This document shows positions 12,496 through 57,388 of a stretch of DNA of 64,000 nucleotides, one piece after another. A program made the position numbers and the translations under genes. Position 1 is the stretch's first letter; every line of letters starts with the position of its first letter. Location of the stretch: assembly GCA_031213475.1 (NCBI GenBank), contig JARUPZ010000030.1:6751661-6815660 (forward strand). Direction: 5' to 3'. The stretch is from Nereocystis luetkeana. Taxonomy: Eukaryota; Sar; Phaeophyceae; Laminariales; Laminariaceae. A model generated the notes under the pieces. That model saw nothing but the letters and a program-made list of their open reading frames with translations, was not told the origin of the DNA and ran no database searches.

Positions 12496-15400
12496 ATGGC
12501 TGGTTGGCTCGTATCTCAGGTGGTGATTTTGCTGCTTGCCAGCTGGAGATCAGCCGCTTTGGCGTGCAACTCGCCTCAAATACTCGTGCCGACACAAGTG
12601 AGAGACACGGAAAGTGCTTATCGACTGGCCGAGGCCGTGAACTGCTCGGGAGGGTCGTTCGACGTAGAATGGGTCGGCTCCGTCAGGATGGGAACAGCTA
12701 TCCGCGTGATAGACGGTACTACCCTAAGCGTTACAGGCGCCTCAGACGGATCCTCTCTTATCGACGGTTCCAATGAAACTTCCTTTTTTCACGTGATCGG
12801 CGGTACCCTGCACCTGTCGCAACTTACGATGGCCAACGGCACTGCTGAGTTCGGTGGCTCAATCAATGCGACACACTCCGTTGTGACGACTTCCAGCTGC
12901 ACCTTTGTGGGCAACGAGGCGGGGTTCGGTGGAGCCGTGCATCTGCTTGACTCCACCTTTGAGGCTATGAATACTACATTCGTCGGCAACTTGGCCGCAG
13001 CTGATGGCGGTGCGTTTACATCGATAGACTCGAACGTAACAGTGGGCCAGGGCGGGTGTTTCGAGAACAATGGCGGGTACTTTGGGGGTGCTATTTACTC
13101 GGAGGGTTCTTCGATTCACGTGACCGATTCCGTATCCTTCTTGAGCAATACTGCCTTTGCCGGCGGGGGCGCATTCCTCTGGGCCTCCGAGTTTGAGGCG
13201 GACGACGTAACATATGCTGGCAATAATGCTACAGGCTTTGGAGGTGCAATCTGCGCAGGAAGCTCGAACGTGACGATTGCGGATGGCGCGCGCTTTCTGA
13301 ATAACAGCGCGAAGGAGCAAGGTGGCGCTATTTTGGTATATGAAAATAGTTCTCTACTTCTGTTGGAGGCGGTGGAGTTCGAACGCAATATAGCGAACTT
13401 TGGAGGAGCTTTATTCGTGGAGGTTTCAGTACTCTACATGGATGGGTTTGCTTCCTTCACGAACAACGTTGCGGACGACTCTGGCGGAGCTGTGTATGGG
13501 GTCCTTTCCGACATCACCATCACTGGCAATGTTTTGTGGGAGACAAACAGCGCCCTTTATGGGGCGGGTATGCGGCTGTATCGCTTTTGTACGCTCATAG
13601 TTACCGGTGGTATTGCATTCCTCAACAACAGCGGATTTCAAGGCCCGGGAATGTGGGTATCAGAACGCTCGAACGTGATCATATCCGGACCGTCGATTTT
13701 CGAGTCCAATTTCGCACATCACGATGGTGGCGGGTTGGTTGTCTTCAACTCCACAATGCAGTTCACGAACCGCAGCACTACCAGCTTCTACAACAACAGT
13801 TGTGCGCAAGCCGGGGGGGCAATACTTCTCTACACAGCGGGCGAAATCACTCTCGCAGGCAAGGCGACGTTTGCCAACAACAGTGCCGAGCTAGGGGCGG
13901 GCATTGCGGCTTCGGAAGGCACGTCCGTGACCGTCACCGGCAATGTTGTAATGGCGGGAAATCTTGCGTCGTCGGCGGGCGGGGCTATATATCTCGACGC
14001 GCCACATCAAGTCCTGGTCAATGGCACACGATTTTTTCATAACCAAGCAATGCAAAGTGGAGGGGCCATAGTAGCGTTTTCGGCAGGAACTGGAGATGAA
14101 TATGCAACAATATCGTACTGTGTTTTTGAACACAACAAGGCCAGCGACGCCGGTGGGGCATTGTTCATTGGCGGGGGGTTCGTTTTCATTAACGAATCTC
14201 GGTTCCTCTCCAATATTGCCGGTGAGTAGCAGTAGCGCCTGCTCAAATACCTCTTCAGGATCAACGTGCTCAGGTTTATCACGGTATATGCTTATTCAAC
14301 GCCTGACATAGTAGCCAAAACCACGCCTTTTCGTTCTGGCTGTAAAACATTGTATGTTTTGCCATGCTGGTGGTACATTGGCGCAATGAACCGCATGCGG
14401 CATTGGTTTTGCAGTCCCTAGATAAACGAGGGATTCACACGGCAGTCGTACGGTTGTTCGGCTGACACCTACAGCCCGCCCGTATTCTCAGTTTTTTTTT
14501 CTCACGTCCTCTGCTCTCTGGCTTTATTTTGGTTGAGAAAGCACAATAGTCTGGGGCTGTAGTTCGAGGAGCAGATTTGGTTCTCGTTATTTTGTAGCCA
14601 TGAATAGGGAAACAATACTTTATCTGTTCGGATGCCAAGCTCATCAGCAGACGGAGGTGCAATCTGAGCGTGCGTTCTCCTGAGAGCATCGGGGTGTACA
14701 TCAGCGAGTTCAGTATGTTGGACGCAACTTACTTTCCTTTCCGGGAGCAATTTCGTGTACATCCGAGGCTGACTCACGACCCCTACCCAGTACCCCCATA
14801 ATTACTCCTATAGACCGTAGTTGTCTTGTAAATACCTACGGACTGTACGTACTGTAGCTATATCTATTGTTGGGTGGCGGCGGTTCCCTTCCAGTTTGAT
14901 TCTGCAGCCGAGGTTTCCGTACGGTACGGCGTTCGCAAAAAAAATAATGCCCGCCTTCTTACCAGGCATCTTCAGGCGGCCGCGTGAGCGACCTTGATAA
15001 TTTTGGTGATGAGTAGGGGGCGGTTATAACCCAGGCATGCAACTGGCTCGTATTGATGTACATAACATCGATGCCGCTATTGTTATATTGACTGTCTCAA
15101 GGACAGTACACACCCTTAAATTAGGCAATATCACCAAGAGACACTGCTACACGCTGCTGTCGATGCTTCGGAAAGCGAATATATTGTGCTTGGGATAAAA
15201 GCGAAATTCTACACAAAATAGTGACCGTAAATGGGTTCGTTAGATGGGTGAGACACAACTGGAAACTGCAGTACGGTAAACACAGCATGATACTGTACGT
15301 AAATATGGTGTTTCGCGGTTCGCGGAAGTTGCCGAACCTGACCATGCCCAGTCCCTCATGCGCGGTCACTGTGGTCGGTCGGTGCGCGTACGGCAAAGCA

Positions 15401-18400
15401 GGTCGTGCTGGTGGTGCGGTGCTGGTGTCGGGCATCGTAAAACTTAGCAACTGCATCCTGGTGGACAATGAGGCCCGTCTGGGACCAGCAGTTTACAATG
15501 CGGTGACGGTTACGCTGATATCTACGGACGTTTGCGACAATCAACTCCTTTGTGACGATGGCAGTTTTCTTGACTGGAATTATGTGAGTTATAAAAAAAG
15601 CTGGCGAACAAGTGGGGGAGGGGTCATGCTTGTGCGGATGCTCATGCCGAACGGGCCACGCTGAGTCCCGCTCGTTCCCAGTTGGAAAGGCTTAAAAAAT
15701 TGCTCCTCGCGATTCAAGCTATTTTAGTCCAGGTGGTTTTGGGCAACACGTGCCTGCCAGGGCAGGGACTCCTGTACATCGAAACTACCCTTACCTGGTA
15801 GTTGTTTAAACCTGTCACAGTGCATGAAAAGTCTCCACGGGGGTAACAATACAGACTTTTTCTATCGTAGAGGCAGCATTGTGACGGACGTTCTTCGCGG
15901 CATCCCTAACCCCTACGGTGCGCTTCCCTCAGAAGGAGCGTTGCGTTCACTGTTATAAGATCTAACCCTAACTCCAGCCCTGTGGGCTTCCCTATGTGGG
16001 CTTCTCCAAACAACTGCCGTGCGACCGACCCTCTTTGTGCGCGGATAAACATTCCATGTTCATCACTCCGCCCATAACACCAACGGAAGCGCAGGGCTCT
16101 GCGTACGATGTCGCCTGCGATTCCTGCCCCGTAGAAGGCAACAGCTGCACCATGGCCTACTCGGACATCGTCCAGCTCTGTGAACCTCTCCTTGAGCACA
16201 CCGCTAGCATTGTTCCGCATGGGACGCTGGAGACGCTTGATCTGGAGCCGGGGTACTGGCGAAGCTCAAACACGAGCAGAGACATTCGAGAGTGTTATGA
16301 AGCTGCCGCGTGCATTGGAGGGGTGCTTAATTTGTGCGCACTCGGGTACGAGGGACCCTGTGAGTGCATGAGTTTGCCAGTGTCAGATTCTCAACTAGCT
16401 TTCTATTGGTATATACAACCCTACTGCAGAACTACAGGACGCTAGGAGTCCATGAGGCCAATATCATCTGCACGCGGCTTGCAGTCAGTGGCACGAGCAG
16501 TGTTTACAGTGACCTATCCTCTTTTATGCATTGCGCCATACCGAACCCTGGCCGTTTGTTCTACTGCACTATACCTGCTATGGTACACCCCTGCCTTCCT
16601 GTTGCTCTACGGCATCGCGCCAAATAGACGGTGCTAGTGCTGTGGTTTTGGTGCCTTCTTGCGTGCTGCTGTCCGCGTACGAGTGTTCCTCGGCCTGCTC
16701 TTGATACATGGTTAACTCTGCCCCTCCAGTGGTTACGCTTTGCAGATACACCGCAGCGATTTGCCGCACAAAGCAAATTCGTACCTGGTACAGTCGTAGC
16801 AATCGCTTGAAGCGCTAGGCACTTGTACGATTTAAGGGAGTAGGTTTAGGTGCTATGTTGGGAGTGTATCACCCGCCGGGAGGTTTTCCTCAGCCTTTGG
16901 TACGCGCTTTGCTCTGCCCCCCCCAACGGTAATCCTTTACAGCTGCACCACAGCTTTTGGGCTGAACAGCAGCTGCTCGTACCTGGTACAGTCGCAGCGA
17001 TCACTTCGAGCGTTTCGATATTAGCGGGGTACCTGGTAAATTGATATTGCAGTTTAAACGAAATACGTGGTCAGCGTGTCGAGCGTCAGACGCGACATAG
17101 TGGGGTTAGTGTTTCCCAGATCGAAGCTGTGTCGCGTCTGGTGTGCCTTGTGCTTAGGCGACTTTGGCTTCAACCAAGAGAGACGGGCCTGCACTCGGCC
17201 ATTGATGGCAAGATACCAACGTCAATGAAAACGAGGTTCATACAGTTGTACGGTAAGCTAGACCCCCACCAGGGCGAAACCTTGGACTCAGCAATTCGCT
17301 ACTGGTAGTGTTATACTCCATCTTTTGCTGTGACTGACGGTTCTGAAACTCTTTGCTATTGATATATCTATGACAACGTCAGCAACATATGAAGATACCG
17401 CACATTAAATTTTCCTCTCCTTCGCACCGCTCGTTGCGTATTCCTGCTTTGATCCAAGTTTGTGCTGTGTGCGCGGAAGGGCACACGCCTGGACTAGGGT
17501 TTACCTGTGTCAAATGCAGCGGGGTGCGTCGAAACATGACAATAGGTCTGGGGGCTGTTCTCCTGGGCGCGGCTGTCGTCATGGTGGCTGTCAGCCTTAA
17601 TTTCCTCGGGTCTTCAGCTTCCGGAACGCCGAAAAGGCTGCATGCCTCTTGCGAACGGTTTCGCAGGGTTATATCTCGTTTGAGAAGTACCAAGGCAACC
17701 CAGGCTCTCAAAATCGTCATCGTTTCATGGCAAATCGTCACACAGGCAAGTTGCTCATATTCCACGATTCCAACCAGCAGACAACTTCTCGCCCGAGTAC
17801 CAATCGGTTTAGCGAAACGCCGATCCACGAACGTGGGCGCGGGCGCCTATCTCCTCCAGTAGCGTCTAGCTTGGAATACGGTATCCAGGAGATTCCGTGT
17901 GATCGCTGGTGATGAACACGCTTGATGACCATGGTATCATCGGCGATCGACCCTATTGAGATCCCCGCTGGTCCGCAAGCGCCTGAAATAGTCACTTTGA
18001 TATATCAGGTCGGATATTTATTGTTTAGTCGCAAAATGAACCCGCCCGTCCCCTCAGTATGAGTGCCTGTTCTTCCATGTATTGGTCACGGAGGTAAATC
18101 GAACACCCGCAAACCGTGCGCCCACCCTCCTCATGCAATCCGATGCTTTCTCGTCCCGGTGCAGTTCGCGACCGTCGCGAGTATCACATACCCCGAAGTG
18201 TACTCGGCTTTCCTCAGGTATGTCGACATATTCAACCTCAACATCACCTGGATACTATCGGCGGGGTGCTTGATTAAAAGCAACTTTTATCACAGCCTCC
18301 TCGTGTCGACCATGGGAACCTTGGCGATTGCGGGCTTCGTGCTGGGTTCGCACGCGGTCAGCCGTCGCAGATGTCCTGCACACGACAGAGAAGCACGCGC

Positions 18401-19241
18401 CAAAATCGATCAGCGCCATGCGTCAGTCTTGTTTTGGATTTCATTGCTGGTCTATGCTACCGTGTCTTCAACTATTTTCCACACGTTTGCCTGCGACGAT
18501 CTCGACAACGGGAGCTCCTTCCTCCGTTCTGACCATAGTTTAGAGTGCTACACCACCACCCACAAGATTTTCATGGTTTACGCCGGCGTAATGGTCGCGG
18601 TATTTCCGCTTGGAATCCCTTTATGCTACGGGTTTGTTCTGTACCGGAATCGAGCTTCTCTGAAGGTTGGGGTTGGCCTCGGGGCCGGCACAGCCAATGT
18701 AGCGAGTTTCAGAGAACTGTGGGAGCCCTACCGATCGCAGGTGTACTTTTACGAGGTGGTGGAATGTTTGCGCCGCATCTTGCTTTCCGGAGTTGTTGTT
18801 TTTATTTTTCCCAACACGGCTGGACAAGTCGCTACGAGCCTCTTGTTAGCAATATTTACGGCCGCTGTGTTCATGGCCCTGGACCCCTACGTTAGCCGCT
18901 GGCATACATGGCTGGCAAGAATTAGCCACGCGGTTGTTATTTTGAGCCTGTATGTGGCGTTGTTACAAAAGGTTGACGATATGAATGACGACACGTCAAG
19001 TCAGCACGTGTTCTCATGTGTTCTTGTAGCGACAAACTGCGGTTTAATTCTGGCCGTCGGAGTTGAGGCCTATGGCATGTTTTCGGTTGCCGTTTCAGAA
19101 ATACGCAAGCCTACAGGACATATCTCTCCCAATAACAATGGGACCTTTAGGTTAAGTTCGAGTGAATCTTTTGGGCGAGTTGTACCATTGACAGAATCGC
19201 CGCCCAACAACGAAGTGTGCATGGAACTGGAAATGGGATAG
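12496..19241 (+). CDS. Gene 1: Pmp-repeat surface protein with multi-pass membrane domain (5 exons)
   Basis: The model is join(12496..14221, 15402..15583, 16095..16359, 17459..17745, 18165..19241), 1178 aa. The start is the ATG at 12496, because it opens a signal peptide (residues 1-23, ending AALA before Cys) and the paralogue starts at the matching place. Residues about 90-610 carry at least a dozen GGA(I/V/L) and FxxN repeats (FVGN, FLNN, FESN, FANN) with many N-glycosylation sequons; in chlamydial polymorphic membrane proteins such repeats form a beta helix. Residues about 637-745 are Cys-rich (CDSCP, CAVCAEGH). About nine hydrophobic segments follow from residue 750, with the conserved words LWEPYR and DPYVSRWH, then a Ser/Asn-rich tail. 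The last part resembles the TRP/polycystin-like multi-pass region of protist surface proteins, by pattern only. Exon junctions have phases 1, 0, 1, 0; the last donor is GC. It is probably an extracellular adhesin, receptor or channel at the plasma membrane. Function is inferred; the structure is well supported by the paralogue. Confidence 0.85.
14222..15401 (+). other. Gene 1 intron 1 (phase 1)
   Basis: Starts GTGAGT directly after the codon-splitting G and ends GCAAAGCAG. It is 1180 bp against 1346 bp in gene 2. The donor side is conserved between paralogues (GTGAGTAGCAG), while the interior is not. No open frame inside is shared by both genes, so an extra exon is unlikely. Confidence 0.7.
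16360..17458 (+). other. Gene 1 intron 3 with an internal duplication
   Basis: 1099 bp, GTGAGT to CAAG, phase 1. It holds two diverged copies of a module of about 100 bp, at 16713-16814 and 16911-17012 (offset 198 bp), both ending GTACCTGGTACAGTCG(T/C)AGC. Gene 2's intron 3 is only 619 bp and lacks this pair, so the duplication arose after the genes separated. Confidence 0.65.
17746..18164 (+). other. Gene 1 intron 4 with GC donor
   Basis: The exon ends CAG and the intron starts GCAAGT and ends CGGTGCAG. Reading straight through the GC would append an unrelated tail, whereas splicing joins IVTQ to FATVASITYPEVY in frame and matches gene 2. 419 bp here, 1858 bp in gene 2. Confidence 0.75.
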
Positions 19242-20440
19242 TTTAAACTGTGGCAGGGAGTTGTTTACAAAAATATGCAGTACCTGGTATGCGTTTGGGA
19301 TTTAAGATGGTCGGTGTTAGGTGTTCACCCGTAGGAACAATAGGGGTCGTAATCTCATTCATATGGATCCCGGCAATACACACATGGTGTACGGTACTAC
19401 AGTACCTGGTGCCGGTATACGACAAATAAAATACATTTTACTACGGTTCGGTAATGCGTAGCAGTAAACCAGCATCATAATTACAATCGTTTACCACGCG
19501 GGTGGGCGACCTTAAACGTGTGATGGAGCGTAGCGGTAGCCCACGTGTTCGGGTCGAGTTTGAAGGTGTCCTCGAGAAACGATGAGTGCCCTCCGTGTTG
19601 ATCACGGTTGCGACGGCTTTATGTTAGGAGCGCTAGGAGAATCCAGGAACATATTAGTATTGTGTGGTGGTGTTGTCATTGCAAGCAAGCGCGTGAGAGA
19701 GCGCAGCGTGTATTATTGCATGCAAGTGCAGTATTATAGTGGGAGACAAGGTACTGTCGCTGCAAGAGCTAAACGTAGAATATAGATAACGGGGTAATTA
19801 CAGTAGTTTGGTTTCACAATGTATTGTGCAGAACATCGGGAAACGGTATCCCAGGCGAAGCGCATTATCGTATCGGAATTTTCGTTGCTGGTTTTACACT
19901 AACAACCGCTCACTGTTACACTTTGCACTAGTGGGTCAATTTTTGCTCATGCTTGTAGTGGGAACAACGGGTTTTAAATATTCTAAGGTATGACTGAGCA
20001 CGTAAAATAGCAATGGTCCTGTTCTTCGACGAACTCGTAATTTATTGTTGGTTTTAGCTTTTATACTAGTCTCCGGTTGCCCTGCCGGTGTACTTCGCAG
20101 TAGTTGGTTCTCTTCGAGATCTTTAGAAGGTGAAGACCGCCCATCCAAGGACGGGTGAAGATATGTCGGGCTTGTGCTTGAGAGTAATACCAAGCGAAAA
20201 GGGTATATTTTAAAGAGATACCGCGGACTGTGCAGCAGCGTGATCAACTCCTGAGATTGGTCTCACCCGCTGTCTTGAGTGCGTTGACAGAGATCGGAGC
20301 CCGTGCCCGCTACTTCTTCGAAGCATCAGATGGCCTCCGACATCCAGTTTTCCAGCTTTAGATCAGGCAACAAAGTTTGGCTAATGATGCTCCAAGCGCG
20401 CTGCGGGCGATACATATCCACAATAGGCGGACATGTGACC
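19242..20440. other. 3' flank of gene 1
   Basis: Contains two TACCTGG-type words (19281, 19403) and the module GATGGAGCGTAGCGGTAGCC (about 19522), which recurs in the third copy's flank (about 35110) and in gene 2's flank (about 57770). The duplicated block therefore extends several hundred bp past the stop codon. No other gene is visible. Confidence 0.5.
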
Positions 20441-21260
20441 GGTGGTCATATCGTTTGATAGGTGGACAGAGGGTTTGACTTTGGTGTTTGCTTTATAAAT
20501 GGCGTTGAGAAGACGCCGAGCTCGCATGCTGTGTCGTCAGGAATTGCCACACATAACGGAGGACGTCCCTCGCCGGAGACACTCCTCGTGTTTACTAAAG
20601 GGTGCCTCGGGATCTTCTTGACAACCAGATCCTCGCCTACACAGGCCGAGTCTCCGCGTGCCGCTGGTCCGGACAACCGTGACGCCCCTTTCCTCCTGAC
20701 CTTTCCACGAAGCGTATGGTAGCTTCTCAGTAAATCCTGGCGCCTTGGCGGTCAGCAGAATCTGGCAGTCGTGAGCTCTCTGTACAGACATCAGGTTTCC
20801 AACATTGTTGCAAGGTTATTTTCCTTAGGGTGAGTGTCACTACGAAGTTTGCACGGACACCATGTCTCCCCCATGATTTCTTGGCTTGAGTGGGACTTCG
20901 TCCTTTTTAAATGTGCCAGGCAGCGGATGAGCGGTAATACACTATGCATTCGTACTGCGGTCGATAGTCGATGGAGGTTGGAAGCCTTAAGAACGGTGAT
21001 GGGCAGCCTGAAACTGCTTCTTAAGCGCGTTGTGAAAAATGAGGAGATAGATCATGAAGGTGGCAGTTACCTGGAGCAATGGGGACCAGTAGAGGGAGCA
21101 CATAGGAGGAGGAGGAGCAGGAGTAGTCAAGGTCCAACACACCTCAGAAGAGTTACCCTCAAACCGCCATTGACAGTTGTCCCGCATTTACTCACGAGAT
21201 ATGACCGCCAGCCAACGACCGATTCTACAGAACCATACTGTCGGTGAGCAGAGCTATGGC
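20440..21260. other. GC-richer stretch with competing frames
   Basis: Open frames of 60-140 codons overlap on both strands: 20462-20722 (+), 20446-20676 (-), 20537-20791 (-) and 20834-21247 (+). None has a recognisable domain. Part of it (about 21050-21260) aligns loosely with 37240-37450 through words such as AGTCAAGGTCCAACACA and GTTGTCCCGCA, which points to a shared decayed element and not to a host gene. Confidence 0.3.
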
Positions 21261-21269
21261 GATCACGAC

Positions 21270-23900
21270 CGCCGAAGAAGCGGATCTAAGCCTTGAGTTG
21301 CTCCTCCGGGTTGCGCGAGATGTGTGCTTGGCTTAGGCTTGGTGTTTTCGACTTAGCATTGCGGTCGCCAGCGTCCGACGTTACCCCCTGCTTACTACCA
21401 TTCATAGTAATTATCTTCCTGCGCACTAAATAAAACAAGCGAGATCTCCTGCTGCTTTGTCCCGCAAGCCAGAGAGCCCCTAACACATTGGAGGGAAGCA
21501 AAATGGGCATAGGCGTGAAGCATCTCGTAAACACCAGTTGTAATATATATATCTATTTGGCAGAGTCCCACTTCAACACCAGCAGACGGAGAAGGTACGC
21601 ACAGAGGTCTCATCAAAGCCCCCCAGCCATATCAAATATCACAACCCTCACTCCTCTATCACTCTATCCAGTCCACATCAAGCTATACAAGTGCAAGGCA
21701 TCAAGCCAGAGAATACGTGTATATCCAATATTTCCAGGATATTCAAGACAACGCCGCCGTAACTAGGGCGCTTCTAGGTAACCAAACAAATATAGGCATC
21801 GTGAAATAGGACCGAAAGAAGTATACCGCAAGATTGCATCTATCATTGCCGTATTCGCTTGCATCTCAACCCCCGCCAAGCCTCAAAAGGTCGGAAATCA
21901 TCAGAGGTACTGCGCACATTTCGAATCATCAACCCGAAAACCCTAAACAAATCTAGTAATATGTTATACTGAATAAAATCAAAAGTACAATCCTCCCCCA
22001 TTGAAAAAGCGGTCCTGCGTACAGTCACTTTTATCGACTTTTCAAATAAACCGTGTCTATCTGTGCGGCATGCACATGACGAATAATTGAAACTCCAACC
22101 CTCACAATCGAATAAACATACCATACGAGGAGCATATCCATTACAATGTGCTCACCGGGAAGCCCCGTGTTTTTCACGTCAACGCCCCACGGGGCATACT
22201 AGAACCCCAAAGGAATACCTCATGACACGTCATACTTCCCTATGCGCATATTACGTACCAAATGTCATTCGTGCAAACATCTACCAGAGCCATTCATCGT
22301 TCTAGCGCGACGCACTTTTGCATCCTCTGAAAACATATAACAGCTGATCTTCCAGTTCTAGAATTTCCATTGCGGTGATAGCGAGAATCGATTTTACTTT
22401 TTGTTGAGTTTGTTAAGACTTGTATTCCCCTCACAGTAAAACACTAACCTAGAATATGTTCATTGGTGATAGGTACCGATTCACGAAACATTTTACTCTA
22501 AATCAGCCTTAACCCTTATTGGACTGCAGCTACGGTTAGGGGGCATTCCACTCAATTTCTACGTAGGTTGCCCCCACAACGAGACTGCAGTCCTCAAAGG
22601 ATGACCGGGCGTCTAAAACAGAGCATAAAACTAAGAATGGTATTCAGAAACGAGGAGCTTCACCCAAACGCCCCGATTTTCTTGGTTCTTCGATATCTCG
22701 AGACCGCCAACGCCGCGCGCTCATATGCAAACTCTTTCCATTTTTCCGAAACAATTTGTTTGTCCCACAAGCTATAATGACACCCCAGTACTGTATCACG
22801 CCAGGGTATACTGTTGTAGAACCTGGGGCTACGTAATATCTTGTCGCGTATATTCTGCGATATTTCAACTTCTACCTCGTACGAGTAACGGTCGATCGTA
22901 AGCTACCAAATCACCGCCAAAATGACAATATATATATTCTCCAACAACAACAAATGTATGAGCTAACTGTTCGGTTTAGAGAGATACTACCCTTCGTGTA
23001 TGCTGGTCTCCCGCCTGTGTTCGTCCAGGTGGAGGGTCCTCCTTCCATACATCCGTAAATACCGGCGATGGCATGGTACAATATCCTATTTAACCGACCA
23101 GTAGCAATTGCTCACTCGACACAGAAAATCACCCCCACTTGGTACTGATTGCGATCTGTCGTAATTCCAAAACATGCGCAACAACGGCCATCCTTTCTTA
23201 ACGATGTATAGGATACGCTATCACACAATTGCGAAAACAATACCCCAGGAGTCAATCGTCGACAAAGGGATGCGCCTCTGCCCCCCGCTTACAAAATATT
23301 GCATGCGTCGTTCTATAGCTTCGGAAAATGGAGCGCTACTTTTCACAATTCTAGTGGCTGGACGTTATTGGTGTAGACGCCAGTGGCCGTCAGATGTTCG
23401 TTGGTCATGTGCCTCGGCTTAACACTTGAGGTTCAACTTGATCTTGTGCTTGGGAGGATATGCAGCCTCCTTCCCCTTAAAACCGACTGCCATTATCGGC
23501 TCCGCCTGAACCGTTAACTATGCAACCAGTGTCTGCGTCAAGGGCCCGATGCTGCTGGGCACTCCGTTCAGGAAGAAAAGGAGGCCTGGAAGGGATATGC
23601 AACCGTACACGAAGGCAGTGGCGGTCGGAAGGGACGCTTGGTTTTGCCGCGGTGAATCATCAGATCCTGCCGCACGGCTCATCCACGGTTGTCCTTCCGT
23701 TATCGTGAGCGTGGGGTCCTCCTTCCAGTGACGGTTGGTTTTCGTGTCAGGCTTGGCTCGTGAGGCTGGAATAAAACGTAGCCCAAATGAAGCTGACGTG
23801 ACATCTGGTGAAGCAAATTATGTCGGTCCAGCAACCCCGGTTGGGGATTCTCCGAGGGCCCCAAAAAGGATTTTCCCGCCATCGCAGGCAATGATACTCG
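21270..23900. other. Intergenic, AT-richer, no gene recognised
   Basis: Only short, inconsistent open frames occur. The one repeat I can name is MITE-B copy 1 (22509-22604). No splice-linked exons, RNA genes or membrane or signal sequences could be supported. Confidence 0.4.
22509..22604. mobile_element. MITE-B copy 1
   Basis: About 96 bp, starting TTAACCCTTATTGGACTGCAG and ending CTGCAGTCCTCAAAGGATGA, so the ends are imperfect inverted repeats. The inner arms GGGGGCA and TGCCCCC also pair. Related copies lie at 30120 and 62873. TTAA followed by CCC is the form of piggyBac-type ends, which suggests a non-autonomous derivative. Confidence 0.6.
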
Positions 23901-23929
23901 TTGGCCTCAAGCAACGACGCTCAGACGAT

Positions 23930-24440: not shown

Positions 24441-24640
24441 GCTGACGATGACGTGTTCAACCTATGCTTTTCTTCAAACATGACTCCAATGTGCGCACGG
24501 AGGAGCTTCATCTCAGCGGCTGCGACCTCCTTCGGCGTATCGTTGCCCTTGCTCATGCATCTGGCCTTGGTCAAAGGCTTCTGCCCATCCCAGTCGGATA
24601 CCCCCTTTAGCTTTATTCGTGCTGCTGCTCATTTGATTAG
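24440..24640 (-). pseudogene. Possible decayed exon on the minus strand
   Basis: A stop-free minus-strand stretch encodes a Lys/Glu/Ala-rich helical peptide containing TPKEVAAAEMKLLRAHIG and FEEKHRLN. The composition is protein-like and unlike neighbouring noise. It abuts the Pro/Asp repeat, so both may come from the same element read in opposite directions. I do not recognise the family. The competing plus frame (24300-24761) is hydrophobic and looks like its antisense shadow. Confidence 0.3.
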
Positions 24641-34216: not shown

Positions 34217-34780
34217 GGTAAGTTTCAAAAACTGTGGGGGCTCTACTGGCCGCAGGTTGATTTTTACGAGGTCGTGGAATTTTTGTGTCGCATTTCGCTT
34301 TCCGGCGTTGTTGTTTTTATTTTTCTCAGCTCAGCTGGACGAGTCGCCACAAGCTTTTTGCTGGCAGTATTTACGGTCGCTATGTTCATGGCCCTGGACC
34401 AATAACGTTAGCCGTTGGCATATGTAGCTAGCAAGAATTAGCCACGATGTTGATATTTTGAGTCTGTACGTGGCGTTGATACAGAACGTTAACAACGTGA
34501 GTTGAGACAGATCCAGCACGTGTTCGCGTGAGTCCTAGTGGCGATAAACTGCGGTTTAATTCTGGCGGTCGGGGTTGAGGCCTACAACGTGGTTTCAGTC
34601 GCCGTTTCAGAAATAAGCAAGCCCACAGTAGGCCTATCTCGCCTGTTAATAACAACAATGGTACATTTAGGTTACAATTAAGTTCAACTGATTCTTCTGG
34701 GCGAGTTGTGCCCTTGACAAAGTCGCCGCCCAGCATCGAAATGTATTTGTAATTGGAAATAGAGTAGGTAAACTGAACAG
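34217..34780 (+). pseudogene. Third Pmp/multi-pass copy, 3' fragment, broken
   Basis: Begins abruptly at AGTTTCAAAAACTGTGG, equal to gene 1 near 18700, and follows gene 1 exon 5 to the end of the coding region. The first about 50 codons remain readable (VDFYEVVEF, LSGVVVFIFLSSAG, AMFMALDQ), then a frameshift and several stops destroy the frame at the position of DPYVSRWH. The tail resembles gene 1 (SEI.KPT..ISP and SSGRVVPLTKSPP-like) and not gene 2. Everything 5' of this point is absent, so it cannot give a surface protein. It is a truncated segmental duplicate. Confidence 0.88.
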
Positions 34781-34844
34781 GTAGTTGTTTTCAGCGTCAC
34801 GTAGTGCACGCTTGGGTTTTGTTGTTCGTCTTGTACGTGTAGGA

Positions 34845-45630: not shown

Positions 45631-45796
45631 AGTACACTATGCACTCTTTGTGTGCGCGTTCGGCCGTGCTTTCAAGTACAATGTACAAGCTGCGTGATGC
45701 GGTTGTGCTTGGTGTACAGACTGCCCCATTTCCTCGTGATTAGTTCGCAAAGAAAGAACGCTGGTGCCCCCCCTTGCACCTAAACCAGGTATGTAT

Positions 45797-46250: not shown

Positions 46251-46556
46251 ACCCCCATTCAGATTCCACTATTAATAATTCACATGATCAGCGACGAATC
46301 AGTTTGCAGATGTGCCGCATTTCTCGACCCGGGATACATCAGTGTGGGTCCGCCCTTCCGCAGGATCACTTGTATGTACATGGAACGTGGTAATAGGTAC
46401 CTGGTAGGGGTCAAGGCCGAAGATTTTCCGAGATATTCGGTTTCTGGTCGACGAATGATCTGATAAAATACTTTGAAAACTAACAAATGAATCCATAGAC
46501 TATCCGCTCTCTATATATGCTCTTAACACTAACATAGCGTGGTGATAAACTATTGT

Positions 46557-46949
46557 TTACTCGCTAGAAACCAGCTCCCCGCCGCCGTTCCGCCCGACCT
46601 TGGTGACCTTCGACGGTGCCACAGAGTAGTACGCCGAAACGAAGGTACACGACGGAAGGCCTAGTTCAGGCTTTCGGCACTCCAAAGAAACTGCTGTGGT
46701 TGTTGTTGGAGGATCAAAATCCTCTGCATTCACAGCACCCGAAACACCAAAAACAAGTTCGGGGATACCGGAGAAATAAGCAGGTGCGCCAGCACTGGAT
46801 GCCTCGTTCTGTGGGTTGAGTAGGTTGGAACGTTTGGAATTGCTCTTTCTTCTTTTTCCCCTCTATCGATTTTTGGCCGTGGAAAATATCGATTCTACAT
46901 CGGCCGTAGCTGGATCAACGCCATTGCTGCTGTCAGCGGCCTGGTTCAT
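46557..46949 (-). pseudogene. Relic family R, copy 2 (best preserved)
   Basis: Reading down from the ATG at 46949, 130 codons are open except for one TAG at codon 29. The product starts MNQAADSSNGVDPATADVE, has a basic stretch (GKRRKSNSKRS), then QNEASSAGAPAYFSGIPE, VNAEDFDPPTTTTAVSLE and a C-terminus GRNGGGELVSSE. Two other copies in the window (32490-32960, 6560-7180) share this part, so it belongs to a multicopy, presumably mobile, family. The basic stretch could be a nuclear signal. No known domain is recognised. Confidence 0.45.
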
Positions 46950-46986
46950 GGCATGAATACTGTATGGAGGTTTCGTCGTCTACGCC

Positions 46987-47196
46987 TTACTTGGCGGGGT
47001 TCTCAACCTCCATGCTGTTCAACTTGAGAACATGGCAGTCCGATTTCAGTACATGCAGTACGTACCACGTGGTTTCTGGTTGCGCTACCAATGGTATGTC
47101 AGCGTCATGGAAACGTTTGAACACGCCTGAAACAGATTGTGCAATCTCAAACCGCCTTACCCGCATACTCGGTTGATGAAGTTGTTCCGCCACCAA
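46987..47196 (-). pseudogene. Upstream part of relic family R, copy 2
   Basis: The minus-strand frame includes MRVRRFEIAQSVSGVFKRF, DADIPLVAQPETTW and LKSDCHVLKLNSMEVENP. The same sequence occurs, more decayed, upstream of copy 1 (GDDIPLIARP at about 32880). It is out of frame with 46557-46949, so an intron or a frameshift separates them. Confidence 0.4.
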
Positions 47197-47199
47197 GAA

Positions 47200-49570
47200 G
47201 AATACCTGCTCAAGAGCATACTACTAGAGCAGTAGAGACGTACCAGGTGCCTGGTATACCCTAAATAACGCAATGACGAGTGCCGGGTACTTCATATAGA
47301 GTATTCGCTGGGAGAGGTGGCCTCGTGCATCAGTTGTTATAAATCGTTAGTGGGCATGATTGCTTCCTGCGCTTTACTACCGTAGTACAGACGCACTGAC
47401 GGAGTCGCAGGCGCTAGAGAGTCCATGGCGTGGTCAGGGGTGCTATTGGATGCCGTGTATTATTTTTCCCGGTATACTATCCGGTTAGTTGCTGTATGAA
47501 ATAACCATTTGTATCGAGCAGTTATACTAAGTCATCGGTCGCCGCAACCTTCTATGTGATCACCATATGCTCTGGGATCCGCTGTGTTTCCCCGCCGCCA
47601 GTCGAACCCTGATCACGGGTACACCAGTTACTGCATTTGGTCTGTGGGTTAATTGCGGCCCACCGATATGTCTTTAGTTACGCTAGGCGCAGTCCTTAGC
47701 GGTAAGTGCTATCCCCATCTGCATTACCAAAAACCAATGGAATTTAAATAGTTTGGACATATGCCCACCCTAACCAAAGCAGCCCTACCACTACCCCCAC
47801 ACGACCTAATCAACTACCATCAAGGGCACCAGCGTGATAAAATGGAAACGCGACCACGACAAAACCCACTTGATTTTGAAAACAGGCTTCGAACCACTAT
47901 ATGGGAGGGGACAGCTTACCGGAATACACTCACAAGCAGACATGGATTTACTAAACGCATGTGTGTGCCTGACACGTACCACGATATCTCAATGTTAACG
48001 TCGTGCGCCTACGATTTCAGCAGCAGCCCGACAGGTAGTGCGTTCTTGAAAAGCTCGGCTAAATGCTTTACACACTCATGCCTATGTCCTAGTTGCCAAT
48101 ATATATACACACTGAGGCGTAGTAAAATATCCCGCTATGATACGAGTAGTACACTTTGGAACTCAGCCCTATTCTATGCATACCTAATATGGGGTCACCA
48201 CGTCATCCGTTTCAGGGGAAGTTGACGATGCTCCACAAATTGTGAGCTACGCTACACTAGCACAGCATGCTTTGTTTCCTAGAAATGAAGCGTATCATGC
48301 AACGTACTGTGATCGAGGCTGCAAGCATCACGCCTTGTTGCACCTACTTCCTTTGACAATACCTCTCCCGCCATTTCTTCCCTCTGACGATTATACTATT
48401 TTTTTATTTGCCGTGCTATAAACGCCCTGCTTTGCTTTTGAGCCTTCCCGCGTGGCAGCTCATCCTTGACTCGACGATTGCAAAGGTTACAGCTGAACTA
48501 CCTCATATCAATGCTACAGTTGTAAATCGTCAAACTACTCGATTTTGTTGTCCCCACCTCGAGGTCGACCGAGGGGTTGGCGGGTCGAACGGTTACTAGC
48601 CCTGCCATACAACTTTTCCCGTCGGTCACCAAACACAGGAGACCTACCCGTCTCCACCACGAGTCACTGGTCCTTCGTTCCATGATACTTTGCGTCGCCG
48701 TTCATGCTGATAGCCTCGCCGTATTTCTTGTCCTGCGAAGGATGTTCAGTTGAGAGCTTACGCGCGATCTTTTCCGTGACCCATGACATTTCCCTCCTTG
48801 CAGTCTTCCTCGTGGGCTATTTCATCTCCCACAACCCACAATGCATGAAGCAACAAATATATACCGCCCGCCCCCCCCCATTTCGTTTGGCGTCTAGAGT
48901 CGCCTCGCTACCCAAACCCTCAACCAACCCCAAATCGGAGTGTGTGCTCTCGTACGTGCAATCCACGAGTTGCCACGCAACTCTGCACCCGCCCGTGGCA
49001 CTCGCAACACACCAATGTAACGAGTTTGACAAGCTTAATGGTTGGTCTGCCTTGATGTATCGAAGGTTTTAAAGCTAGGTTACACGGTAGATTTCCCTGC
49101 ACACCCGTGGTTTTGCTGTGTGGTGATGGCGCAGCACTCAGGTGTCGGTCTAACCCAAAGGACTGGTCCGAGGTTCGCTACTACGTTTGGGCCTTTTTGT
49201 TTTCGGGATATAAGACCTTCGACCTGGAAACACAAAGGTAAGCTTACCTCGCTGTTTAACAACCGAAACCTAAGTTTTATTTAGATGCCAAACTGTTATC
49301 GATATATTCGGTAGAGTAGACACTTGAGATGTCGGAAGAACAAAACGAAACCAACAGGACCCGCCCAGACACGACACGACGAGAGCACGCGCGCGGCGGC
49401 CCCGGTAGAGACGGGAGGCGCGAGCAATGTGAGGCACGATGATGAAACAGCTCATCGAGAGGTGGACCTCATCGCGAGCAAGCTCGTGTACGGCTCAAAA
49501 CCTGGTTTAAACATAACATTTTCGAGGCTTGACAGGACATGCCAACAACGACATATCTATCTGCATATGA
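47200..49570. other. Intergenic upstream of gene 2
   Basis: Open frames at 47761-48225 (+, 154 aa), 48704-49072 (+), 48817-49032 (-) and 49324-49674 (+) show no domains, and none is linked by splice sites. The last overlaps the 5' flank of gene 2, is out of frame with it, and is unlikely to be translated. Confidence 0.35.
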
Positions 49571-49574
49571 AGGC

Positions 49575-49685
49575 TACACGAACAGCTCTTCGCCATTTCT
49601 CGTACTCAACCTTCTTTGTTTCTGCTCGCCACGTCCGTTTTGCACCGCCGCCCAGACTTGCCTTTCCCGATTAGGGTAGCAGCAT
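49575..49685 (+). promoter_or_regulatory. Conserved 5' flank of gene 2
   Basis: Matches 12385-12495 upstream of gene 1 (TTGTTTCTGCTCG, CGTTTTGCACCG). Conservation ends at about 49575, which gives an approximate 5' limit of the duplicated unit. Confidence 0.45.
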
Positions 49686-52600
49686 ATGATGGCTGGCAGC
49701 CTCGCCCTACGTGCCGTGCTTTTATTGCTCGTCACCTGGACATCACCGGCCACAACGTGCCACTCGATGCCAATAGTCGTGCTGCCGAGAGTTAAGGACG
49801 CAGAAGGTGCTCATCAACTGGCGGAGGCCGTGAACTGCTCGGGTGGGTCGTTCGACGTGGAGTGGGTCGGCGCCGTCAGAATTGAAACAGCTATCCGCGT
49901 GATGGGCGGTACCACCCTAAGCGTAAGGGGTGCGTCAGACGGGTCTTCACGTATCGATGGTTTCAATCAAACATCCCTCTTTCACGTGAACGGTGGGAAC
50001 CTGCACCTGTCGCAACTTACGATGGCCAACGGCACTGCTGAATTCGGTGGCTCGATCAATGCGACACACTCCATTGTGACGACTTCCAGCTGCACCTTTG
50101 TGGGCAACGAGGCGGGTTATGGTGGAGCCGTGCATCTGCTCGACTCCACCTTTGAGGCTATGAACACTACATTCTTAAGCAACTTTGCCGCATTTAATGG
50201 AGGTGCGATTGCATCGATAGACTCGAACGTAACAGTAGGCCGGGGCGTGCGTTTCGAGGATAACCACGCGCTCTATGGAGGTGCCATTTATGGGGAGAGA
50301 TCCTTCGTACACGTTACCGTTTCCACATCCGTTTTGGGCAGTAATGCTAATGTCGAAGGAGGAGCGTTTCTCTGGGCCTCAGAGTCCGAGTCGCACAACA
50401 CGACTTTCGTAGACAACAATGCTACAGGCTATGGCGGGGCGATGCCCGCGAGAAAGTCGAACTTAACGATTGCCAATAGCGCGTTCTTTTTGAACAATCG
50501 CGCAGCGGAGCGAGGTGGCGCTGTACTGGTATATGAAAAGTGCACTCTACTCCTGTCGGATACAATTGAATTCCAAGGAAATATGGCAACATTCGGAGGA
50601 GCTTTGTCCGTGGAAATCTCGGTACTCTACATGGACGGCTATGCCTCCTTTACGGGAAACGTAGCGGCCCAGTCGGGCGGAGCTGTGTACGGTGCCCTTT
50701 CCGACCTCACCATTACTGGCACTGCTTTGTGGGAGACAAACAGCGCCCCATATGGGGGAGGTATGCGGCTGTATGGCTACTGCACGCTTAACGTTTCCGG
50801 GAGCGGTACGTTCCGCAACAACAGTGGGTTCGAAGGCGCCGGGATGTGGGTATCACAACGTTCAAACGTCATGATACCCGGATCATCCACGTTCGAATCC
50901 AACTACGCTTATTACGAAGGGGGTGGAGCGGTTATATATAACTCCACGGTGCAGTTCATGGCCGGCAGCACTGCTATCTTCCACAACAACACTGCTTCAG
51001 AAAATGGAGGGGGAATCCTCCTGTGGATCGCAGGCGAACTCACTGTTGCAGGCAACGCGACGTTTACCAACAACAGTGCCAAGACTGGGGGAGGTGTTTC
51101 GGCTACGGAGGGTTCTCACGTGACCGTAACCGGCGACGTTGTAATGGCGGACAATTGGGCGTCGGTAGCTGGCGGGGCTATTTACCTCGACGCGCCAAGT
51201 ACACTCCATGTCAATGGCACGCATTTTCGGGGAAACAAAGCGATGCAAAGTGGTGGGGCTATTCTAGTCTTTTCGGCAGGAATGCGGTGGGATTTGGCAA
51301 TTGTTTCGCACTGTGTTTTCGAACACAACAGAGCTAGTGATGCCGGAGGGGCATTGCTCATTGGCGGGGGTTTCGTTTCCATTCGCGAATCTCGGTTCAT
51401 CGCCAACAGCGCCGGTGAGTAGCAGCAACACCTCTTCAACATGTGGATTTCATTCAACTGTCTCTCGCAAACTCGAGCGTCTGATTGCCATCAAGAGAAC
51501 ACCTCGTTTCACCAGTGAACGCCTACGTCACCAAGCTGGTCGAACGATGGCCTGCCAACTATCCACATACGTGAATTGGTGGTATGATGAACATATTGGT
51601 TTCTTCAGCAGGTACTCGTTAGCCTTGGCTAAAAAACGGAGCCGGCTTCATCTCGTATGGTTATAGTACTGGGTAGATACGCAGGTGTAGGGACAGGCAA
51701 GCCCTAGGCAATGTTCCCAAGCAGAAACCCCCTACGAAGCTGCCACACAGTCTACGTCAAAGGAACACGTTTACAAGAAAAATACGCAAAACGTTTCCAT
51801 CGCTGGTGTTTGTCAGAAACGACAGCCAAAGAAAGCGCAGCAACTGCACCCATGGGGGGGATCCCATCTTTCCGTCCAAATCCTTCCCGAACGTATTCAG
51901 CAACCGCAATGAGCTACCTGGTAAGTGATTGTCAAAAAGGCGGCAACCTACACCGTAAATAGATGATATCGTACACTACTCTACGACATGAACTACAGAG
52001 TCGCATGTGCTGACCACCTTGCTTGCACATGCGGTCTTGATTAATTGTGATTTACGTCTGTGAATAGACGAAATGTAACGTCGGTTCATACAACACTCTT
52101 ATCACACGCCAGTGGTGAAATCGACCCGCGCTCTCTACTCAGTGAGTCGCTGTGTATTTGGCAAGTTTCTCCTTCGAATCAATGGGGTCACCTTGCCGGG
52201 AAGATTGTTCGTCATGTCTCAGCATGCCTAATGCCCCCTGCGCAATGTCCGGATTTCAATAGGTGGATCCAAATAATATGATATGTCTAGCAATATGTTT
52301 TGTCATGTGGCGACGGCATTCTTTCAGTAGTTTGACTTTATATCCTAGTCTTGTACATTCTTTGTCGAAGAATGAACGGCCTTTCTGCGTTAGTGAGAGG
52401 TGCATGGTGCCGTTGGCTGTTGCTCAGGCGTGCTATTGGCCCGCCTTGACGTCGTGTAACATCTATGGTTCAGTTCCTATAGGCTTTACACTCCTACGGA
52501 GGCTGCAATGTTACCAGGAGACATTGCGACAAAGCACTGCCAGTACTCTTGGGGAGCGGGTTCATACGTATCCTTCCTAGCGACCACATATCGTAGTGAC

Positions 52601-55600
52601 AGCAAATGCTTGAGTGAGAGATGCTGGATACGGCTGAAAAGGAAGCCCACATCGCTGGTAAAAATGCTGTTTTATGTTATGTTACAATTGCCGAACCTTT
52701 ACATGACCCAGATGGCCCCCATGTCATGTCACTGCGGCCGGTGCTCTTACGGAAGCACAGAACGTGCTGGTGGTGCGGTAATGGTGTCGGGTATTGTAAG
52801 CTTCGAAGACTGCATCCTGGCGGGCAACGAGGCGCGTCGAGGATCAGCAATATACAATGCAGTGACTGTATCGCTGAAATCAACCGACGTTTGCGCCAAC
52901 CACCTCCTCTGCGACGACAGCACTTTCCTTGACTGGAATAATGTGAGTGGCCCAAGTACTGGAAGGCGAGGGGGCGATGGTTATGCTTGTGGTCGTGTTC
53001 ATACCGAGTGGTCCATGTTCTGAGCCCCCTTATCCAGTGGAGACGGCACAACACAGCAATACTACTTGTGGGTTGCTTTGTTATGGCCAGGGTGCTCTAT
53101 GAAAACCGAGCCTGCCGTGGAGAGGGACGGCAATCCATCGATGACATGTTTGAGATATTTATGTCATTACACTGTGCATGAAACGTCTGTGTGACTGTGA
53201 CTTTGCCGCATGTTCCTGCAGTTGGCCGTGTGACCACAGTTATTTGTCCTATCCCGGAAGTAAACCCTGTGGATGTCCGTGTCAGTTGGCGTGTTTTTGA
53301 CCGTCTCTGCCTGGGTAAACACCCCTTTTCGCCAATTCCTTCGTAACACCAACGGAAGTACAGGGCTCTGCGTATGATGTCGCCTGTGATTCCTGCCCTG
53401 TAGAGGGCAACACCTGCACTGCGCCCTTCAAAAACAGAGTTCAGCTGTGCGAGCCCGTCCTTGAGCACACCACTAGCATTGCTGCGGATGGGACGCTGGA
53501 AACACTTCACCTGGAGCCGGGATACTGGCGAAGTTCAAACACGAGTAGGGACATTCGAGAGTGCTACGAAGCCGACGCGTGCCTCGGAGGGACGCATAAC
53601 TTGTGCGCCTCTGGGTACGAGGGGCCCTGTGAGTGCGTGCGACGCGTGTTGTGCATAAAACGTGCCAATTTCTGAGTTCAAACATATTCTTTTCAAATTT
53701 TGTGGCCCTGTATAAGACCCGAAAACTGCCAACGTTAAATCGTAATGTACAAGTGCCTTAGCGTAAAAAACGATATATATATATATATATTGTCTGATTG
53801 TCTCCCTCGCCGTAACCAGGGGGCTTCTGTTGATATCTGGTATATGTTCGAAGGTTTCGGACCTTCTTTACCCTGTGCAGTACGTGGCCAGCTATGATTA
53901 CACAATGGCCAAAGTTTAGACCGGTCGAATCGAACCTGATATATTCATATCAACCAATTTCAGCACTTCGCACTCGCCCTAACCGGCGGCTCTCATTCCA
54001 CCTCGAAGTAACGTCATGGGCGACACAGCGATGACCAGCATCAGTATATAACGGAATTATCTTACCCAGCCCGAGTTTGGTACTACCTTACACCATGCTT
54101 TCGTGTTGTGTTCTTCGGCCATCAGGCGCGTGAGGTAATTCCACCACAATTATCACGCTATGGGCGTTGAGGCTAATACAGCAAAAGCCTGCACACTAAC
54201 TTTTTTCCCTTATCCCTTGTTATGTTCTTTCCCGCGTTTGGTGCAAGTTTGTGCCGTGTGTGCGGACGGACACACGGCTGGGCTAGGGTTTGCCTGTACC
54301 GCATGCAGCGGGGTGCGCCGAAAGGCGACCATAGCCCTGGGGGTTGTCCTTCTAGTTGCGGCCGCCGTCATGATGGTGGCCAGCCTACATTTCCTGGGGT
54401 TTCTATCTTCCGGGATACCAACAGGGCTGCAGGCCTCTTGTGGACGGTTTCGCAGAGCTGCGTCGCGTCTGAAATGCTCTAAGGCAACCCAGGCTCTCAA
54501 AATCGTCATCGTGTCATGGCAAATCGTCACACAGGCAAGTTGCTCATATTCCACAACACCAACCAATGCATATCGTCCCGTCTGTATCGGGGCAATCTGA
54601 AGAGACATTCATCGGCGCACGTAGCCGCCACCGCCTATTACCTGTAGTATCGCTTTGCTTGGGTTCTGTCCACGGACATCCTTTGATAGCATTTGTGGTG
54701 GACACGGTTGCTGATAAAGGCATTACCCTTATCAAGCTGCACACGTGCAGAGTACTGTACGTTTGAAGAAATCAGATCGCGTGGTGATGACTTTCTTTAA
54801 GTCTTATATCAAGGACCTTCTCAGACGCTGGCACACGACGGTATTTAGAGGCTAGCCCGCGTCGCTGAGCTCAGGCAGTCCGGGCTGCACTGACGATTAG
54901 GTGTATATGTCTGTGGTGTCGTACTAAGTGAGGCTCTCTGGCCAAGTTACCTTTTTCACAACGAACTGGCGAGAGTTTAGAAGCAAAGGAGAGTGAACCT
55001 GCAGGCACCTACTATCTGCATCAGTCTTTGTACCGTCCCATGTACTTAAAAACGTTGTTGAAGTTATACTCCGTGGGGTATGTCGTTCGTTTCGTCTTGC
55101 GGCCTCTTGTTTCTGTTGGACAACTTGCTCCGTCAGTTGTCGTCCCGCCACCCGAACGCGCGCCGGCGGCATGGCAGGCATGATACAACAACCCGCGACG
55201 TTCCGTAATACATTAGTCTGTGGTGTGGCGTACCTATGTTGTTTTGTGCGGCAATCGGTGGCATTCCTCAATACACCAGCCGATGGCGTGGCGCTTGTCT
55301 GGCTAATGCGGCCGCCCGTGGCGTCCCGTAGTACGTCGACATATAGTGAGGCGAATTTGATCGTATGTGGCAACCCGCGGCGTTCCGCAATACATTAGTC
55401 TGTGACGTGGCTTATTTTGTCTTATCCTTGGCGTTCCTAGATATATATGTCAACCGGTGGCCTGCCGTACGTTTAGCTTGCGCGGCAACCAGTGGCGTTC
55501 TGCAGAAAATCAACCTGTGGTAATATGTGGCGTAATTTACGTTATGGAGCAACCGTGGTATTCGCAGTGCGTTACTCTGTGCGGTGGCGTGCAGTATCTC

Positions 55601-57388
55601 ATGCGGCGGCCCGCGGCGCGTAACAGTTGGTATCCGCGCTCGACGCGAACTCGCTACGTATCACGCACGAATCTGGGTTTCCGGTGGAGAGCTAGTAAAG
55701 CGATAAACACTCAGATGAATTCGGTTTGAAAAAATTCTGGGTCAGCGTGTTTCGGCAAGTGACAGTTCATGAGTTCTCCGCGAGTACTCGCATTCTCAAG
55801 AAAGTGATATGGCATGTTTTCGAGTGCATGGCGTTCTTTCTACAAGGTTTTGAGACTATTCCGCCTGGGGCTTCGATACAGCAACAGCAGAACTGCAGTA
55901 GTAGTAGTAGTTTTCTTCGGGCAATAGCAGAGACTGGCCACAGCGCTCGGCACACAACATACTCGTACGACTCAACTCCACGTCTCTAAGCACCTGCCAG
56001 GTGCTACGGGAGAGTATTGACCAACCGTTCAAACAGAATATCGCACATGTAGGAAAAGGGGTAATATTAACATACCGGTACCTACTATGTTGTTTATAGC
56101 CGACATACATGAACAGTGCGTTTGATAGTTCCAACGGTATTGTATCGGTTGCAATCATTTTGACGTGCTTATCACAGGGGGTGTTAACTACATATTTATT
56201 GCAGCCAATTATATTTCTAGCTTGGGGCGTATTGCAGCTACAACACGTCGTATATCCTGGGGCTGACTAACCCACTGATTTTGCCAAATATTTGGAACTT
56301 GAGTGTCTCTAACACCCCCCGAACCGTGCGCTCACTCTTCCCGCCTACTCTTCCCTCCCCCCGCGTTCCGATAATTTCTCGTCCCGGTACAGTTCGCCAC
56401 AGTTGCGAGCATCACATACCCGGCAGTGTACGAGGCTTTCCTCAGGTATGTCGACGTATTCAACCTGAATATCTCCTGGATACTGTCGGTGGGGTGCTTG
56501 TTCGAAACCAACTTCTACCACAGCCTCCTCGTGTCCACCATGGGACCCTTGGTGATTGCCGGCTGCGTGCTGGCTTCGCACTCCGTCAGCTGCCGCAGAT
56601 GTCCGGCACAGGACAGGGAAGCACGCGCCAAAATCGATGGGCGGCATGCATCAGTTCTATTTTGGATGTCGTTGCTCGTCTACGCTACCGCATCTTCATC
56701 GGTTTTCCGCACGTTCATCTGCGACTATCTCGACACCGGAAGCTCCTTCCTCCGTTCTGATCACAGTTTAGAGTGCTACACCACCACCCACAAGATATTC
56801 ATAGCCTACGCCTGCGTTATGGTTGCCGTATTTCCGCTCGGAATCCCTTTCTGCTATGCGTTTGTTTTACACCGGAATCGAGCTTCTCTGAAGGTTGGGG
56901 TTAGCTTCGAGGCCAACACAACTAATATAGCAAGTTTCAGAGAGTTGTGGGAGCCCTACCGACCGCAAGTGTACTTTTACGAAGTCGTGGAGTGTTTGCG
57001 CCGCGTCGTGCTTTCAGGAATTGTAGTTTTTATTTTTCCCAACACAGTTGGACAGGTCGCTACGAGCCTTTTGTTGGCAATGTTCATGGCCGCTGTGTTC
57101 ATGGTCGTGAACCCCTACGTTAGCCGCTGGCACACGTGGCTGGCAAGGATTAGCCACGCGGTTGTTATTTTGAGTCTGTTCGTGGCGTTGTTACAAAAGG
57201 TCGACGATGTGAATGACGACATGTCAAGTCAGCACGTGTTCGCGTGTGTTCTAGTAGCGACAAACTGCGGTTTAATTCTTGCTGTTGGGGTTGAGGCCTA
57301 TGGCATGTTCTCGGTTGCTCTTCTAGATTTACCCATGCCTACTGCTATCGTCGTTCTCAATAACATCGGGACACACAGGGAAGACTAG
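49686..57388 (+). CDS. Gene 2: Pmp-repeat surface protein with multi-pass membrane domain (5 exons)
   Basis: The model is join(49686..51414, 52761..52942, 53364..53628, 54248..54534, 56393..57388), 1152 aa. Two adjacent ATGs (49686, 49689) precede the signal peptide (AVLLLLVTWTSPATTC); the second aligns with gene 1's start. Residues about 90-610 repeat GGA(I/V) and FxxN (FVGN, FEDN, FLNN, FESN, FTNN) with many sequons. The Cys-rich part (CDSCPVEGNTC, CAVCADGHTAG) and about nine hydrophobic segments match gene 1 in order. All exon junctions and phases are identical, including the GC donor after IVTQ. The C-terminal tail differs: gene 2 ends in a short LPMPTAIVVLNNIG tail, where gene 1 has a longer Ser-rich one. 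Both copies are intact, so both are probably expressed and could differ in ligand (repeat region) or signalling (tail). Cellular role inferred, not shown. Confidence 0.85.
51415..52760 (+). other. Gene 2 intron 1 (phase 1)
   Basis: 1346 bp, GTGAGT to CACAG. It contains an 83-codon frame (51711-51962) with no counterpart in gene 1, and TACCTGGTA at 51915. No conserved internal exon. Confidence 0.6.
53629..54247 (+). other. Gene 2 intron 3 (phase 1)
   Basis: 619 bp, GTGAGT to GTGCAAG, with a TA run at about 53772-53790. It lacks the internal duplication seen in gene 1's intron 3. Confidence 0.6.
54535..56392 (+). other. Gene 2 intron 4 with GC donor
   Basis: 1858 bp, GCAAGT to GGTACAG. It is more than four times longer than in gene 1, largely because of a degenerate tandem array at 55180-55620 and an AGT run at about 55896-55910. 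No shared internal exon. Confidence 0.7.
55180..55620. repeat. Degenerate minisatellite, about 70-bp period, in gene 2 intron 4
   Basis: Recurring words CGGCAACC.GTGGCGTTCC, AATACATTAGTCTGTG and TGTGGCGT occur about every 70 bp for at least five units, with heavy divergence. It is absent from gene 1's intron 4 and explains much of the length difference. Confidence 0.6.

Follow-up and report, generated by a model that had tools for sequence, protein, structure and literature searches.

Two paralogous kelp genes appear to join Pmp-type repeats to a TRP-like membrane part within a large gene family

How do repeats of the kind carried by chlamydial polymorphic membrane proteins (Pmp) come to stand ahead of a multi-pass membrane domain in a kelp, and do the two belong to one gene? 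The question is raised by a stretch of the 465-Mb Nereocystis luetkeana genome (C30:6751661–6815660; hereafter the window, 64 kb long, to which all positions below refer) that holds two paralogous five-exon genes on the + strand, A (12496–19241, 1178 amino acids) and B (49686–57388, 1152 amino acids). In the reading we favour, with a probability of roughly 45%, A and B belong to a large brown-algal surface family in which a wall- or ligand-binding rod is coupled to a TRP-like channel or transporter. An earlier sequence-only reading of the window had reported two intact paralogues combining Pmp-type repeats with a membrane domain, and had proposed a eukaryotic surface sensor or adhesin with its own transport or signalling module; the observation was confirmed, and the interpretation is partly supported. 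The exons and a third-copy fragment are laid out as follows.

12496..14221, + strand: A exon 1, leader (hydrophobic) followed by the predicted beta-helix of Pmp repeats
15402..15583, + strand: A exon 2, final repeat coils
16095..16359, + strand: A exon 3, Cys-rich stalk
17459..17745, + strand: A exon 4, end of the stalk and first membrane segments, with a GC donor behind
18165..19241, + strand: A exon 5, rest of the membrane segments (TRP-like, PF06011), with the predicted cytosolic tail and the stop
34220..34790, + strand: third-copy fragment, decayed and interrupted by stops, limited to the 3′ part of exon 5
49686..51414, + strand: B exon 1, leader (hydrophobic) followed by the predicted beta-helix of Pmp repeats
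52761..52942, + strand: B exon 2, final repeat coils
53364..53628, + strand: B exon 3, Cys-rich stalk
54248..54534, + strand: B exon 4, end of the stalk and first membrane segments, with a GC donor behind
56393..57388, + strand: B exon 5, rest of the membrane segments (TRP-like), with a short tail and the stop

Blocks of DNA conserved between A and B tracked the five exons closely, and every exon was open and in frame in both copies, with identical intron phases (1, 0, 1, 0) and matching splice sites (GT-AG for introns 1–3 and GC-AG for intron 4 in both), as expected of the intact paralogues that had been claimed. The two proteins were 72.5% identical (80% in exon 5, 67% in exon 1). Their coding sequence is under purifying selection, with dN of 0.164 and dS of 0.521 (dN/dS = 0.31, range by exon 0.19–0.40, maximum over 60-codon windows 0.62). 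The third copy reported earlier was indeed present, but proved to be a degenerate remnant of the 3′ part of exon 5, corresponding to A residues 1001–1177 and interrupted by seven stops in the matched stretch. As a separate observation, 28 of the first 31 bases past the intron-4 GC donor (17746–17776 and 54535–54565) were identical by eye between A and B, and the conserved block stopped there; this likeness perhaps helps a weak donor.

The motif GGA[IVLFM] occurred 13 times in the first 640 residues of each protein and FxxN 14 times in A and 15 times in B, while 2000 shuffles of the first 640 residues of A gave means of 0.4 and 2.9 (maxima 4 and 8), so that the counts in A exceeded those of every shuffle. 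The coils were mostly 25–28 residues long and began at GGA or a variant, with about 18 of them across A residues 120–602 (manual count). Both repeat profiles scored above their curated cut-offs: Chlam_PMP (PF02415) at 74.8 bits in A (E = 1.2e-21) and 76.4 bits in B (E = 3.7e-22; cut-off 20.6), and POMP_repeat (TIGR01376) at 72.4 and 79.3 bits, respectively (cut-off 15). On these profiles A and B are Pmp-repeat proteins in the wide sense, in line with the repeats named in the sequence-only reading. Its label ‘chlamydia-type’ is apt for the match to PF02415, but gives no ground for a chlamydial origin, which is not to be inferred because PF02415 proteins occur in >100 non-chlamydial species (PMC10715098). 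Chlam_PMP was the sole Pfam match in exon 1 of A and B, where neither LNR nor an ML-like (TRP_N) domain was detected, and no autotransporter barrel or Pmp middle-domain family was found in exon 1, the exon pieces or the spliced exons 3–5 of the two genes. Exon 1 also contained 16–17 N-glycosylation sequons.

With the two window sequences as input, AlphaFold2 modelled the repeat exon as a strand-rich solenoid (predicted local distance difference test score, pLDDT, 84.4; predicted template modelling score, pTM, 0.83), the five models spreading in pLDDT from 61.6 to 84.4. A Foldseek search with this model was headed by PL6 alginate lyases, with a single match at E ≤ 0.001 (8.9e-4), followed by tailspikes, antigen 43 and EtpA. 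Since the head of the list consisted mostly of beta-helices, at TM-scores by query length of 0.10–0.49 among the 50 matches listed, the beta-helix class is supported without a close solved relative, and the repeat exon is predicted to be the beta-helix that had been anticipated.

Behind the repeats, the Cys-rich stalk, membrane segments and internal introns of the earlier description were all present in A and B. The spliced exons 3–4 matched DUF7630 (model positions 3–45 of 45) across the exon 3/4 junction, at 17.6 bits in A and 21.0 bits in B, below the cut-off of 27. GCC2/GCC3, a family suggested for this region, gave no match to the exons or the spliced stalk of either gene in the Pfam scan. 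Against the kelp genome DUF7630 produced a single match (E = 0.24), outside the family and at a threshold at which two control genomes gave matches as well; that family loci went unfound in this search is expected, because the match in A and B crosses an intron.

Hydropathy revealed nine segments behind the stalk in A, so that the earlier estimate of about nine holds for this copy, but only eight in B, where the segment equivalent to A 907–925 fell below threshold. Across 19 family members, PF06011 matched 16 at E ≤ 1 (best 6.3e-7), and the runner-up Pfam family matched nine (best E = 0.057). When the whole genome was searched with PF06011, 14 of 16 matches at E ≤ 1 were exon 5 of this family, three of these being identical copies and one lying above the cut-off (29.8 vs 28.5 bits); 14 control genomes yielded nothing. 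Because PF06011 matches concentrate in this family both among its members and genome-wide, we read the membrane part as a distant homologue of the PF06011 ‘TRP’ proteins of fungal Pkd2/Flc type, which backs the TRP guess made from the sequence.

Whether repeat and membrane exons form one gene was addressed through relatives elsewhere in the genome. PF02415 itself gave no match there at E ≤ 0.001, and whole exons were used as queries because this 19-residue model is too short for 465 Mb. A exon 5 then matched 114 times and exon 1 112 times at E ≤ 0.001. Sixty-six exon-5 rows were at least 240 amino acids long, 48 of them distinct once same-score rows from small contigs were dropped, and 41 of the 48 had no stop in the matched stretch (manual count; the two stops of B lie beyond its own end). 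An exon-1 match lay on the same strand within 10 kb upstream of 22 of these 48 loci and downstream of none, with 49 of the 112 exon-1 rows compared. Six relatives (L031–L036), picked ahead of any exon-1 search result, all showed the five parts in the same succession as A and B, with exon 2 matched at E ≤ 0.007; in L032–L035 exons 1 and 2 stood within a single open reading frame (ORF), so these two exons are one coding unit. Among distinct sequence contexts, 16 exon-4 ends closed in CAG; the next two bases were GT in 13 of them and GC in three (A, L003 and L027). The acceptor AG stood ahead of exon 5 in 18/18 contexts and ahead of exon 4 in 14/15, the AG-less case being L004, which shares its location with L037, has an exon 5 interrupted by a stop and is probably decayed.

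The agreement of splice sites and phases in A, B and relatives, together with the order of parts kept in 6/6 relatives, supports the assignment of repeat and membrane exons to one gene, as the sequence-only reading had assumed. That they should instead be separate genes or annotation artefacts is extremely improbable in view of the same evidence, of the weak DUF7630 match that in A and B alike bridges exons 3 and 4, and of the one-sided placing of repeat matches upstream of the long exon-5 loci.

The same counts bear out the earlier suggestion of an expanded family. LNR (Notch) domains scored above the cut-off of 21.2 in four of six scanned relatives, L032–L035 (23.0–41.9 bits), which carry two to four each, N-terminal to the Pmp repeats as judged by the best stretches (contigs C30, C2 and C28 of the same genome); L031, L036, A and B had none. 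In a tree of exon 5, L032–L035 fell in one clade (support 0.988; L033 represented by its identical copy L011), which holds four further members outside the six-relative scan, while A and B were sisters adjoined by L003. No relatives in viral contigs and no exon-1 relatives in prokaryote genomes were confirmed. Expansion of EsV-1-7 is a mark of brown algae, and 150 such motifs were scored out of 1718 candidates in this genome and none in the 14 control genomes.

Family members also occurred in clusters. A region of contig C3 (15.80–16.79 Mb) held 18 repeat-exon loci inside 1 Mb, forming a subfamily whose repeat ORFs are shorter and whose membrane part is divided further; all 11 membrane pieces of this cluster lay 8–25 kb downstream of a repeat-exon locus on the same strand, with eight distinct partners. 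Six long exon-5 loci were found on contig C22. These clusters, along with the varying repeat length and LNR content, would suit defence or self/non-self recognition receptors diversified as clustered genes. We nevertheless hold such a role to be quite improbable, as the A/B pair shows no diversifying selection, dN/dS never rising above 0.62 in any 60-codon window. One exon-5 score recurred at nine places, C2:7926846–7927760 and eight small contigs (C809, C872, C1099, C1275, C1378, C1420, C1432 and C1666), which represent either recent amplification or unmerged assembly copies.

Under the favoured reading of a rod coupled to a TRP-like channel or transporter, A and B would be secretory-pathway membrane proteins of a large brown-algal family, their glycosylatable rod placed outside the cell and binding a ligand, wall polysaccharide or some other. 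The Cys-rich stalk would pass on this contact, or tension in the wall, to the TRP-like domain, which would then open a path for cations (perhaps Ca2+) or change transport; members with unlike numbers of coils and LNR domains might thereby differ in binding specificity. The channel or transporter role is inferred from distant homology to fungal PF06011 proteins, which are linked to wall integrity and to Ca2+; Pkd2 and Trp1322 of S. pombe are reported to be Ca2+-permeable (PMC8618638). The surface location, with wall or ligand sensing, is putative. A bolder extension, doubtful in our estimate, is that beta-helix-gated TRP-like channels, some with LNR, serve as the wall-integrity or cell-recognition sensors of brown algae, as a system distinct from the receptor kinases of plants and the integrins of animals. 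The 48 distinct long loci provide concrete candidates for wall sensors, adhesins and recognition receptors.

Several results weigh against the favoured reading. On exon 5 of A, PF06011 reached 9.3 bits in one scan and 13.6 in another, and on exon 5 of B 17.6 bits (E = 0.0019), all below the cut-off; with a longer spliced piece the score for B dropped to 10.3 bits and A had no match. The AlphaFold2 model of exon 5 was unusable (pLDDT 36.3). A search of the PDB by sequence with two-sequence profiles returned no related solved chain, and the 19-member profile returned no channel, of animal TRP/PKD type or any other, its one 84-residue match (E = 0.53) being taken as chance. Homology does not imply a place at the surface, since the fungal relative TrpR is found in the Golgi. 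AlphaFold2 may be overconfident on beta-solenoids (PMC11795689), a caveat tempered by the imperfection of these repeats and by profile matches that are independent of the program. Finally, none of five loci picked for the absence of an exon-1 match in the 10-kb comparison (L037–L041) had exon 2 or a long repeat ORF: L038 and L039 had a partial repeat match (~1e-7), L040 and L041 weak ones (0.014 and 0.005) and L037 none. Longer introns may account for some missing exon links, given the 8–25 kb separating the parts in the C3 cluster.

Two other roles draw on the same architecture. The protein could be an adhesin in which the beta-helix fastens cells to the wall, to other cells or to a surface, with the TRP-like part as a passive anchor; the adhesins antigen 43 and EtpA in the Foldseek list, and the increased adhesion conferred on expression by trichomonad Pmp proteins, which span the membrane once (PMC6701047), are in its favour. 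We regard it as possible but rather doubtful, because exon 5 is better conserved than exon 1 and its ~48 invariant columns across 19 members exceed what a passive anchor needs. Alternatively, the family might act as a secretory-pathway transporter or lipid/flavin handler, the rod being a lumenal capture or folding domain. Fungal relatives include Flc, linked to transport of flavin adenine dinucleotide (FAD), which certain PF06011 homologues are said to carry, and the Golgi protein TrpR, required for normal walls (PMC8618638); yet a large family with long, glycosylatable rods of variable length would be unexpected for a housekeeping carrier, and we consider this role unlikely.

The closest known systems are chlamydial and trichomonad Pmp proteins and the fungal PF06011 family. 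Chlamydial Pmp share the PF02415 repeats but carry a bacterial autotransporter barrel, whereas A and B have introns and a multi-pass membrane part, with no match to the bacterial barrel or Pmp middle domain. Trichomonad Pmp proteins are likewise eukaryotic, expanded and devoid of the bacterial C-terminal part, but end in a single membrane segment with endocytic motifs (PMC6701047), in contrast to the kelp family with its eight to nine TRP-type segments, its Cys-rich stalk and the LNR domains of certain members. What follows the Pmp repeats here is a multi-pass domain, neither a bacterial barrel nor a single anchor. Fungal Pkd2, Flc and TrpR, to which exon 5 shows distant homology, have an N-terminal ML-like lipid-binding domain where a predicted beta-helix stands here, and yeast TRPY1 is without the PF06011 domain (PMC8618638). 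A kelp unigene bearing a Pmp-repeat-type annotation has been quantified by reverse-transcription quantitative PCR (PMC10573767); its link to A and B is the annotation that such repeats attract, which makes it at most a possible member of the family. No description of the combination of Pmp repeats with a TRP-like part was found in the literature searched, subscription papers and protein databases aside.

In the remainder of the window, ten further ORFs matched no Pfam family at E ≤ 0.01, and tRNA and Rfam scans of the window gave no match. The 9-mer TACCTGGTA or its complement occurred 21 times in the window, compared with ~0.5–1 occurrences expected in total under Markov models; none of the 21 sites fell inside A or B exons, one-mismatch variants occurred at most twice each, and the flanks of the sites were mostly unlike. 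Thirteen sites were on the + strand (6491, 9925, 11250, 15792, 16782, 16980, 17030, 19281, 28842, 35237, 46398, 51915 and 63419) and eight on the − strand (2823, 4092, 4950, 5601, 7228, 9375, 25261 and 59083).

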